From IMG/VR virus record IMGVR_UViG_3300005527_000246, positions 1 to 26,635 of that record: DNA of 26,635 bases; one strand, 5' to 3'. Source of the stretch: a virus. Below the pieces are notes generated by a model, which was given only the letters and a program-made list of their open reading frames with translations, did not search any database and had not been told where the DNA came from. A program made the translations under genes and the position numbers. Each line of letters starts with the position of its first letter. Position 1 is the first letter of the stretch. Positions 11,943-17,545 of the stretch are shown in pieces.

Positions 11943-12022
11943 AGGGTATAAACTTTGTAGATTTACTGAGGAAAACTGTAGAGGTTCTCAATAATAATAT
12001 ACCGAATTTTTCGGAGTTCTCC
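11943..12022 (-). promoter_or_regulatory. Candidate late promoter of the fiber unit
   Basis: The gap upstream of the 182-aa gene carries GTATATTAT (plus-strand coordinates 11994-12002) and AGAACTC 12 nt upstream of TATATTAT. The same two words occur in the other large promoter-like gap (18870-18995). Downstream there is GAACCTCTACA (11977-11987). A short palindrome (ccgaatttttcgg, 12002-12014) overlaps the upstream part. The site lies directly after a strong terminator, so a new start of transcription is expected here. Which polymerase would read it is unknown: it does not closely match the Bacteroidota host consensus TTTG/TAnnTTTG. Confidence 0.5.
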
Positions 12023-12060
12023 AAAAACAAAAAGGGAGCGGACAGATGTCCAACTCCCTT
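12023..12060 (-). terminator. Intrinsic terminator after the 453-aa virion gene
   Basis: Reading the minus strand, AAGGGAG (12054-12060) pairs with CTCCCTT (12032-12038). Inside it, GGAC pairs with GTCC around a four-base loop, and the run TTTTTGTTTTT follows at once (12023-12033). A GC-rich stem plus a U-tract 28 nt after the stop of the 453-aa gene is a textbook rho-independent terminator. It separates the head/neck unit from the fiber unit. Confidence 0.93.
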
Positions 12061-12087
12061 CTATGATGAGTAGTCGTGTACTCTTGA

Positions 12088-14605: not shown

Positions 14606-14663
14606 AGGTTATATAAGGTCCGTCCTGAGCGCCCTGGTCTACGGGAAGGGGGACGGACATGTT
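14606..14663 (-). other. Intergenic hairpin before the connector gene
   Basis: The gap contains an 8-bp perfect stem, GTCCGTCC (minus-strand arm, plus coordinates 14651-14658) with GGACGGAC (14618-14625), around a 25-nt loop that can itself pair CCC with GGG. No U-tract follows, so it is not a standard terminator. It may stabilise or separate the mRNAs of the flanking genes. Confidence 0.7.
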
Positions 14664-15680
14664 TTACACGTTCCAGTACTTTTCACACTTCTTTGTCAAG
14701 TCAATCAGTACCTCTTCATTCAATGGATTCTTCAGGTATTCAGCTACATCTGAAGGTGTTCTACCCATCATAGATCCGGTCTGCATGTGGTAAATGAAAC
14801 CGTCAGCTTTGGTAGAGATAAACTTGTAAAACGTAGAGTCTTTTACCAGCGCTCTGATCTTCAAGGTTTCCATGTCGAGATTTGCAATCTCCATGAATCT
14901 TGTAGCGGTTTTACGCTTATCTTTTTCAATCAGTTCACCATCGATATACTTATCCATGTTGTCATAGATAATATCGTTCGGTGTACTTTTCTTGTACTGA
15001 GCAGAGTTAGGATCCAGTACTTTAGCCACATAGAACAACTTATTAGTGTTCTTGTCATACAGCTTCTGAAGTTCAGCAGCAGCCTTGTTACGCAGTTTTT
15101 TCACTTCTGTCTTGATAGACGCTGTTTCTTCCTGCTTATCTAAAAAGAACTTAGGCGGCACAGGTTGACGGCGAGCTTCTTCTAAGGACTTAGCCACAAT
15201 TGAGAAACCACCGGCTTCAATCGCGTACAGTCTGATCAGATCGTATGGGTCCTTGTCAGGCTCCAGGTAAACGGCTTCGTTACCGCATCTGATCTTGATC
15301 TTATCCCAAAACTCTCCGTTATCAGGACGCAACAGTTTTACTTTGTTCCAGAAGTCAGAGTCATTCGGATTGATCACGTTAGCAGCCAACTCGCTTTCAA
15401 GTTGAGCTACAAGGTGGCGAATCTGCTTGATCTTAGCTTCTTGCTCTTCAGCCGGTAACGTTTTTACTTCAGGAGCAAACTCGTTAAGACCTGTTACGTA
15501 TCTTTTGATACCGTTGATCTCTAAGCAAGCAATCGATTCTTCATGGAACGCTCCGTCAAAAAGACTTAAGCCATACTTCTGTAATCCCATGTTATCCACC
15601 ATCGGATCAAAGAACGGTCTAATTGCTACAGTACTGCGCTTGTTTTGCGGGTACTTTTCTACGATTGTTACACTACTCAT
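14664..15680 (-). CDS. Conserved head-module protein of unknown function
   Basis: The protein has 338 residues and is highly charged (many Lys, Glu and Asp) with long helices. The N-terminus has RPFFDPMVDNMGLQKYGLSL; residues about 77-100 (PAEEQEAKIKQIRHLVAQLE) and 185-215 (EETASIKTEVKKLRNKAAAE) are coiled-coil-like. No catalytic motif or signal peptide is visible. Phages of this type carry such a gene next to the major capsid gene, and an inner capsid or cargo protein, an assembly factor or a vertex protein are all possible. Both sides are non-coding hairpin-rich gaps (14606-14663 and 15681-15919), unlike the tight spacing elsewhere. This suggests its expression level is set apart from that of its neighbours. 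Confidence 0.7.
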   Translation of the reverse strand: MSSVTIVEKYPQNKRSTVAIRPFFDPMVDNMGLQKYGLSLFDGAFHEESIACLEINGIKRYVTGLNEFAPEVKTLPAEEQEAKIKQIRHLVAQLESELAANVINPNDSDFWNKVKLLRPDNGEFWDKIKIRCGNEAVYLEPDKDPYDLIRLYAIEAGGFSIVAKSLEEARRQPVPPKFFLDKQEETASIKTEVKKLRNKAAAELQKLYDKNTNKLFYVAKVLDPNSAQYKKSTPNDIIYDNMDKYIDGELIEKDKRKTATRFMEIANLDMETLKIRALVKDSTFYKFISTKADGFIYHMQTGSMMGRTPSDVAEYLKNPLNEEVLIDLTKKCEKYWNV

Positions 15681-15699
15681 TGTTTGGTTTTTTGGTTTT

Positions 15700-15910
15700 T
15701 AACTTATCCGGTATTTCCGGATAACTGACCTGGTGAAGAGTTACGAACTCTTTTCGACGCATCCACCAGGTTGATGCTACCAGCGGTAGCAAGCTCCTTT
15801 CCGGGTCATGACTCCCATACTCATCTGGTCGGTTCCAGACCGGTTACTAACCGGGAGGGGGAAGAGTATAAAGACCCGGGCGCTGTTCTGATGGGAAGCA
15901 ACCCGGGTAC
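15700..15910 (-). ncRNA. Candidate structured RNA element between capsid gene and 338-aa gene
   Basis: The 239-nt gap after the capsid stop has no open reading frame but six well-formed hairpins (plus coordinates): 15874-15880 with 15902-15908 (7 bp); 15864-15869 with 15817-15822 (6 bp), enclosing two smaller hairpins (15841-15853 and 15824-15839); 15776-15781 with 15785-15790 (6 bp, 3-nt loop); 15728-15735 with 15764-15771 (8 bp), continued on one strand by 15736-15742 with 15746-15752 (7 bp, loop CGT on the minus strand); and 15704-15711 with 15717-15724 (8 bp). No T-run ends the element. An AC-rich leader links it to the next ATG. It could be a structured 5' leader, an RNase or stability element, or a small RNA. 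Confidence 0.6.
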
Positions 15911-15919
15911 AGTTACAAC

Positions 15920-17545
15920 TTAGAATGATCCACCAGTTACAGGGTTTCTCATCACGATCTTCAACACCTTAGTTGGGTCTTTAACCCAGATAGCAGGCAT
16001 TGTCTGGCTCATGAACACACGGTAACCGTTGAAGTTTCCAGAAGACTGGAAGCCTTGTGTACGACCCATGTAGTCCATTGTACCGTTCTGATAGAACCAC
16101 TTCAATTGGTTATCCCAACTTAACTTCAACAAGAAGATGTTGTCGTTAGTGTTATCAGTGATATCGAAGATGATGAAGTTGTAGCTAGACAGAGGGAAAC
16201 CGTCGATGATTGGGTTCTCAATGTCGTTAGTGTGGATGTTGTCGAACGCTGGGTTCAGAACGAACTTCACGTTAGCCAAGAACGGAATTACATACTGAGT
16301 GTATGCGAAACCGAAGTTCAGATCCATTCCTTTACCAGTGATCGCACCAACTTCAGAAGCGTTGATCACCATACCGCTATTGATAGCTTCACGCTTAATA
16401 GCTTCGTTAACCAGCTTCATACCACCGAGACCGGTTTGTACAATCAGCTGACGCTTAGGATCTGGACCCTGGAACTCAACCTTACCGTTGAAGAAGTTGA
16501 AGATTTCACTCTTGAACAGATCCAGGTTGAAAGAACCTTTGTTGTAGATACGCTTGAAAGAGTTGTCAAGCTGCTTCCACAAACCTACAGACAGACGGAT
16601 ATCATCCGGACCATCTTGCTTCACGCGACCACCCTGACCCCACATCAAGTAGGTTTCAATGTCGTTCGCGATCTTAGTTAAGTGAGCAGCTTCCAGGGTA
16701 GTCAAGAACGTACGAGTCAGCTGACCAGACTGGTAAGCCTTCTTCACGTAGTCTGCACCCATCTTGGCAGCCATTGTCTCCAGGTTAGTGATAGAAGGAT
16801 CTTTCAGAGCCTCGCTATCGAAGTTTCTCCAGAGTTCAATTACCGGTACAGTACCGTCAGCTTTCATACCACCCTTCATCATCAAGTCAGCGCGAGATGA
16901 GATTGAGTAGTGTACGTGAGCTTCAGCACCACCTACGTAGTTGTAGAACTCACGGAAACCAGCAGATACCTGACCGATATCAGAGAAACGCTCACCGTAT
17001 TCACCACGGGCAGAACCCTTACGGAATACTTTGGTACCGATCTTCAGATACTTGTTGTCCAGGAATTTGGTGCTGTCGTTGTTCACCAGTTGCACAGTGT
17101 AGATGAAACCGTCACCAGCAGGGATGATATCATCCTGTGTGATGTACATTTCCACACCGTTGTACTTGTCGTAGGTGATGATATCACCGTTACCGAAAGT
17201 ACGTTTGTTAAGTTTGATCTTGAAGGTCTGACCATCAATACCTTTAGCGGTATTAGCTGGTTCGATGTCTTCAACGATGTATGGAAGATCCTGCGCTACA
17301 GGGATCTGCCACTTGTACTCTCCACGAGCGTTATCTACATTGATAACATTCTTACCTCCGAAGCTGGACATCTGGTACAAAGGCATCTCTACCTTTTGCG
17401 CCATAGCCCACAAGTCTACTGGACCGAGGTCAGTAGGCTCTGCGCTCTTCAGAAGGTTTGACAGGTGGTACGAGTCTACGTGTGAGCTAGTTGTGTAGCT
17501 GTTGTCACGCAGGAATATACCATTGTTCAAAACAGGGGTTGGCAT
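15920..17545 (-). CDS. Major capsid protein
   Basis: The protein has 541 residues. Its position right after a scaffold-like gene and portal, its length and its overall pattern fit the major capsid protein of large Bacteroidota phages (HK97-type fold by family knowledge). Visible landmarks: residues 1-75 with DLWAMAQKVEMPLYQMSSFG; around 215-230 HVHYSISSRADLMMKGG; the long helical stretch ending IANDIETYLMWGQGGRVKQD; and a C-terminal domain with SYNFIIFDITDNTNDNIFLL and YRVFMSQTMPAIWVKDPTKV. The codon and amino-acid choice is even and suited to high expression. The leader shares AATCCAAAA-CCC with the 453-aa virion gene. A structured RNA gap follows. No separate protease gene is seen, so cleavage is uncertain. 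Confidence 0.85.
   Translation of the reverse strand: MPTPVLNNGIFLRDNSYTTSSHVDSYHLSNLLKSAEPTDLGPVDLWAMAQKVEMPLYQMSSFGGKNVINVDNARGEYKWQIPVAQDLPYIVEDIEPANTAKGIDGQTFKIKLNKRTFGNGDIITYDKYNGVEMYITQDDIIPAGDGFIYTVQLVNNDSTKFLDNKYLKIGTKVFRKGSARGEYGERFSDIGQVSAGFREFYNYVGGAEAHVHYSISSRADLMMKGGMKADGTVPVIELWRNFDSEALKDPSITNLETMAAKMGADYVKKAYQSGQLTRTFLTTLEAAHLTKIANDIETYLMWGQGGRVKQDGPDDIRLSVGLWKQLDNSFKRIYNKGSFNLDLFKSEIFNFFNGKVEFQGPDPKRQLIVQTGLGGMKLVNEAIKREAINSGMVINASEVGAITGKGMDLNFGFAYTQYVIPFLANVKFVLNPAFDNIHTNDIENPIIDGFPLSSYNFIIFDITDNTNDNIFLLKLSWDNQLKWFYQNGTMDYMGRTQGFQSSGNFNGYRVFMSQTMPAIWVKDPTKVLKIVMRNPVTGGSF

Follow-up and report, generated by a model that had tools for sequence, protein, structure and literature searches.

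In phage T4, a pseudoknot in the leader of gene 32 serves as an autogenous translational operator, a bare structure of about 28 nt that is bound by the ssDNA-binding protein (PMC535899). Phage- or metagenome-borne RNA families are represented by the candidate motifs PhotoRC-II, manA and wcaG (Weinberg et al. 2010; PMC2864571). In crassviruses such as cr10_1 and L386, the gap after the capsid gene holds an intrinsic terminator, a simple hairpin with a U-tract. Crass-like phages rank with the most abundant of known viruses; in open full-text papers, no account of a structured regulatory RNA from their head operon was found.

The element described here, designated element E, occupies the same gap as the crassvirus terminator but contains a pseudoknot, which that terminator lacks. 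The T4 gene 32 leader appears to be its closest known counterpart in behaviour. Both are pseudoknots of phage mRNA, one in the leader of T4 gene 32 and the other in the putative leader of the next gene; both are followed by an A-rich initiation region without structure, and in both the structure is retained in some relatives while the sequence drifts. Element E sits upstream of a start codon, as the T4 pseudoknot does, and its regulation of the gene that follows is putative. It differs from the gene 32 operator in being held within a stem of 7-9 bp, in sometimes carrying an extra arm, in preceding head genes, and in having no known binder. Like PhotoRC-II, manA and wcaG, it is a covariation-defined RNA family found in phages next to particular genes, but those motifs accompany photosynthesis or sugar genes in cyanophages. 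For element E the most fitting description is a new family of cis-acting phage mRNA elements.

The window, meaning the whole stretch of DNA analysed (26,635 nucleotides), is a fragment of the genome of an uncultivated crAss-like virus, with all main genes on the minus strand and, in the sense direction, the portal and large terminase genes upstream of the capsid gene. It shows no DNA similarity to annotated phages, and ARAGORN found no tRNA or tmRNA in it. Because the main genes all lie on the minus strand, the gap after the capsid gene is to be read on that strand; it runs from 15681 to 15919 (239 nt), exactly as the first-pass annotation had placed it, between the following two genes:

15920..17545, minus strand: major capsid protein gene (Pfam Crass_capsid, E 5.6e-32; phrog_11589, major head protein), upstream of the gap in the sense direction
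14664..15680, minus strand: gene for a 338-aa protein with no assigned function, directly downstream of the gap

A PDB sequence search with the 338-aa protein gave no match; its fold model is poor (mean pLDDT 57.5), and a structural search returned no significant match. A weak, non-significant resemblance (E 0.23) links the C-terminal part of this low-confidence model to the RecA C-terminal domain, and in cr10_1 the gene after the capsid gene is annotated as RecA. The first-pass annotation set the 239 nt of the gap against gaps mostly under 25 nt, but its size is not unique, as the window has further large gaps of 145, 126 and 58 nt. Other structured gaps, at 11943-12087 and 14606-14663, are a true terminator (AAGGGAG..CUCCCUUUUUG) and a GUCCGUCC/GGACGGAC stem. 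Folded on the minus (gene-sense) strand, the gap reaches -81.1 kcal/mol, whereas its shuffles average -63.9 (z -3.61, with none of 200 as good), so that its folding energy lies below shuffled controls, one of the checks set by the first-pass annotation; the plus strand gives a z of -2.87. All the stems listed there (15875-15907, 15840-15854, 15824-15839, 15776-15790, 15728-15771 and 15704-15724) are present, and the rod described as interrupted on one side, 15728-15771, is element E. In sense order, the parts of the gap are:

15875..15907, minus strand: hairpin A, directly after the capsid stop codon, then UCUUUAUA (15867-15874)
15840..15854, minus strand: hairpin C, CCGGUUAGUAACCGG, 6 bp, 3-nt loop
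15824..15839, minus strand: hairpin D1 (UCUGGAACCGACCAGA), common to L005 only
15803..15816, minus strand: hairpin D2, loop AGUCAUGA, common to L005 and L041
15776..15790, minus strand: hairpin G (GCUACCGCUGGUAGC), 6 bp, 3-nt loop
15728..15771, minus strand: element E as a whole, a conserved P1-enclosed pseudoknot RNA (covariance model R1)
15764..15771, minus strand: element E, P1 5' strand ACCUGGUG
15758..15760, minus strand: element E, pseudoknot 5' strand GCG, pairing with CGU of the P3 loop
15737..15751, minus strand: element E, P3 hairpin AGAG-UU[CGU]AA-CUCU, with the pseudoknot 3' strand in the loop (15743-15745)
15728..15735, minus strand: element E, P1 3' strand CACCAGGU
15704..15724, minus strand: hairpin F, between element E and the next gene
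15681..15700, minus strand: unstructured A/C-rich translation leader AAAAACCAAAAAACCAAACA

Element E is a compact, stable RNA of about 45-60 nt in which a P1 stem of 7-9 bp surrounds an H-type pseudoknot: a triplet in the P3 loop pairs with a triplet just inside P1, and this helix and P3 together form the pseudoknot, with 2-nt loops. Conserved unpaired bases lie in J1 and in the P3 loop. An arm, P2, between the P1-side pseudoknot strand and P3 is optional, being absent from the window copy and from some lineages. In the window the element reads ACCUGGUG-GAU-GCG-UCGAAA-AGAG-UU-CGU-AA-CUCU-U-CACCAGGU (15728-15771), whereas most relatives have ACCUGUUG-UAY-GCA-..-[P2]-GAGAG-CU-UGC-AA-CUCUC-AACAGGU. 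Model R1 matches the window at 15726-15772, the same place as the copies in relatives, with 19.8 bits and an E-value of 0.0025; the window copy is thus a divergent, low-scoring member in which all P1, P3 and pseudoknot pairs nevertheless form.

Compensating base changes in homologous gaps, another check that had been set, were found in this structure. Two-sided changes affect 14 of the 21 pairs among 18 hand-picked copies, and 19 of the 21, including two of the three pseudoknot pairs, among 62 model-aligned matches, three of which are weak (<15 bits) and probably not true copies; this alignment was fitted to the nested helices and not to the pseudoknot. In the 62-match alignment, compensatory cells number 158, compared with 37.5 in shuffles, and the covariation score is 0.382, compared with 0.181 after shuffling and at most 0.09 with partners slid; shuffles leave sequence relatedness in, a concern partly answered by the slid control and by how widely the sequences differ. 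A-U, G-C and C-G are found at the innermost pseudoknot pair, and C-G, U-G and U-A at the middle one. In divergent copies, which were segmented by hand, the triplets pair as GCA/UGC, GCG/CGC, GCC/GGC, GUA/UAC, ACG/CGU, GCG/CGU and UGC/GCA. P1 of L032, GUUUAAU/AUUAAAC, differs at nearly every position and retains its pairing. On the capsid-sense strand G-U pairs number 44 versus seven A-C combinations, so selection acts on the sense RNA; a function of element E as DNA or as antisense was rejected on the same excess. Element E is a real conserved structured RNA, with compensatory changes above both the shuffled and the slid controls. The window and eight relatives matched no Rfam 15 family at the gathering threshold, which is consistent with a new RNA, and relaxed-threshold Rfam searches yielded chance matches only.

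Among the 80 nearest IMG/VR loci, sampled by close capsid proteins, R1 finds element E in 50, always in the capsid-downstream gap, and with filters off it also finds the element in L032, L048 and L056. Across all of IMG/VR, an exact 23-nt pattern occurs in 33 stretches, all within the gap between the capsid and 338-aa genes, and a looser pattern led to 33 further R1-positive loci, all in or at the capsid-downstream gap. Searching text for the motif by structure alone gave too much noise, and the covariance model was used instead. One strong copy is present in 17 of 20 long records of up to 131 kb, with no other match above 15.2 bits, and the notion of a mobile repeat was rejected on this single copy and single location. 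In 80 loci gathered around a capsid of the sister group, R1 finds no element E; the gap there is mostly about 80 nt and, where inspected, holds a plain terminator (hairpin plus U-tract). It finds none in GTDB relatives, and gut cr10_1 has no convincing copy, its gap being a plain terminator. Across the sequences searched, element E is confined to one group of crass-like viruses.

The length of the capsid-downstream gap ranges from 79 to 3983 nt in the 80 nearest loci, and its mixture of hairpins and small genes in relatives marks it as an insertion hotspot. The genes found there encode lysine/glycine-rich proteins of 50-76 aa, "RLG.." proteins of 74-76 aa, endonuclease-like proteins, and SPD proteins of 141-611 aa that share a short conserved N-terminus (SPD..LAKFGHLN). 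Just after the capsid stop codon, L002, L026 and L052 have insertions of genes (about 263-318 aa) that resemble homing endonucleases by eye. Short Lys/Gly/Ser/Ala-rich proteins (MAGNPKTPKS...KKGGM..KKC) are encoded between the capsid gene and element E in the gaps of L023, L024, L027, L028, L033, L043, L044 and L079. The SPD family, which had no database match, combines a conserved N-terminus of about 38 aa (KFxPxSPDxFL..ADMALAKFGHLNAIV) with a variable C-terminal domain (L020 6998-7534, L026 7928-8467, L056 6741-7415, L052 7589-8014 and others). Crassvirus head fibres likewise consist of a short N-terminal capsid-binding part and a variable C-terminal domain (PMC10172136), and from this likeness in layout the SPD proteins are probably head fibres whose N-terminus serves as the anchor. 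Right after the capsid gene of L195 (6633-6668) and of L049 (6633-6668) lies a truncated hairpin that resembles element E (CCUGGUGGAGGCUCGUAACUUCCACCAGG); L195 has in addition a full element E ahead of a later SPD gene, as though every accessory head gene came with a copy. A second module of about 75 nt (AACAGUACUCAG..CACCAG..CUGGCUAAAACACCC..CUGAGUCAUUUU), possibly another structured RNA, recurs between the capsid hairpin and element E in L007, L009, L013, L014, L021, L022, L097 and L104.

The gap in the window is a mosaic and not one RNA, most stems outside element E being lineage-specific or freely changing hairpins. The suggestion of a possible new RNA thus holds for one module, which covaries and matches no Rfam family, and not for the region as a whole. 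Relatives have a hairpin at the position of hairpin A with or without a U-tract, often a true hairpin plus U-tract. In the window, hairpin A is a 3' hairpin that resembles an intrinsic terminator weakly and in part, through UCUUUAUA, and this tail makes the capsid-proximal end of the gap terminator-like; the earlier remark that the region does not end in a U-tract is right for its far end, an A/C-rich leader, but misses this one. Hairpin C varies in its stem in relatives while retaining a U[AGU]A apex, and its usual place is just 5' of element E; the count of its recurrence is biased, because pairing was among the search criteria. The UAGUA hairpin (module C) is also seen right after the 338-aa gene (L034, ~8085; L114, ~12914) and is therefore not tied to element E alone. 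For hairpin G no counterpart was seen in relatives, and at the place of hairpin F many relatives have a stem whose sequence changes freely. The hairpin after the capsid stop codon may act separately, terminating weakly and stabilising the 3' end of the capsid message, and the remaining gap hairpins would be lineage-specific additions within the insertion hotspot.

The distance from element E to the next start codon is 3-118 nt (median 42), and the gene that follows varies: it may be the 338-aa gene, an RLG gene or any of several SPD genes. In L052 the element takes up the whole intergenic space, starting 4 nt past one gene and stopping 13 nt short of the next, and in several loci the upstream gene is about as near as the downstream one. 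A terminator hairpin with a U-tract stands between the capsid gene and element E in 12 of 43 loci, which cuts the element off from the capsid message. Downstream of element E comes UUC(U/A)AA.. or CAGUUAUCC, with no U-tract of the kind that marks an intrinsic terminator. A Bacteroidetes-type promoter is absent from nearly all gaps examined, and the window gap has no excess of sigma-70 promoters. From the closeness of the start codon, the intervening terminators and the near-absence of promoters, element E therefore most likely belongs to the leader of the next head gene. We put the probability that it is a cis-acting 5' leader of that gene, as its position suggests, at roughly 0.55. The varying distance to the start codon and the loci with an equally near upstream gene weigh against this reading, as do the restriction of the element to one group and the low score of the window copy. 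Of the roles offered by the first-pass annotation, a structured leader of the 338-aa gene fits best, because a start codon comes soon after the element whichever gene is next in line and because a terminator sometimes separates the element from the capsid gene. Element E would then be a cis-acting part of the late head-gene mRNA, on a read-through or processed transcript, and would form the 5' leader of the next gene, in the window the 338-aa gene. Translation of that gene might be set through a bound protein or the ribosome; alternatively, the processed downstream mRNA might be given a stable folded 5' end. The occurrence of element E before several unrelated genes counts against a strictly autogenous control by the downstream gene product.

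Alternatively, the gap structures could make up the 3' end of the capsid mRNA, a terminator and 3' stabiliser with element E as a roadblock protecting the capsid message. This reading draws on hairpin A with its U-rich tail after the stop codon, on the plain hairpin plus U-tract in the sister group and in gut crAss cr10_1, and on the strong hairpin without a U-tract that many E-bearing loci have here. At least one gene or a terminator often intervenes between the capsid gene and element E, however, and the next start codon closely follows the element, so that a capsid 3' stability element, also proposed in the first pass, describes hairpin A and fails for the rest, including the placement of E; as an account of the whole it is rather unlikely. 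A compact, stable RNA could also be an independent small RNA made from the gap, but no promoter of the searched types was found, no terminator follows element E, and the element always lies on the same strand as a gene and just upstream of it; this third role put forward earlier gained no support and is very improbable. Both the capsid 3' element and the free small RNA are less likely than the leader. A self-cleaving ribozyme, or an RNase processing site that parts the capsid message from the downstream one, would suit a compact pseudoknotted fold at a gene boundary with conserved unpaired bases in J1 and the P3 loop, yet no Rfam ribozyme family was matched even at the relaxed threshold and no invariant catalytic core was recognised, which leaves this reading improbable.

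Two further proposals concern what the folded element might do. If P3 and the pseudoknot helix were mutually exclusive, with a ligand, a protein or the ribosome selecting between them, element E would be a conformational switch. Such a two-state device is conceivable because the minimum-energy nested fold of some copies (L013, L052) uses the pseudoknot strands and breaks P3; both helices also covary. An H-type pseudoknot, however, lets the two helices coexist, no metabolic gene is associated with the element, and head genes would be unusual riboswitch targets, so that we regard a switch as distinctly doubtful. Somewhat less doubtful, but still only a small chance, is that in the main lineages element E is a dimerising mRNA element, forming a homodimer through a kissing loop of P2. 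Of 47 aligned copies, 43 have GAUC as the apical tetraloop of P2, two have GGCC and one has GUAC, all of them self-complementary, although few of these changes are independent; in L044 the apex is UUAA by eye, the alignment shifting it by one. Across the GAUC, GGCC, GUAC and UUAA apices self-complementarity survives sequence change, as a kissing-loop homodimer would need. Because the window copy and several lineages have no P2, dimerisation would be an add-on; if true, control of phage head-gene mRNA in this manner would be without precedent.

Taken as the leader of the next head gene, element E probably represents a novel RNA element that controls the production of virus head parts. It adds a candidate RNA family with strong covariation, and its placement before the changing head genes of an insertion hotspot offers a testable handle on the balance between capsid and accessory head proteins.
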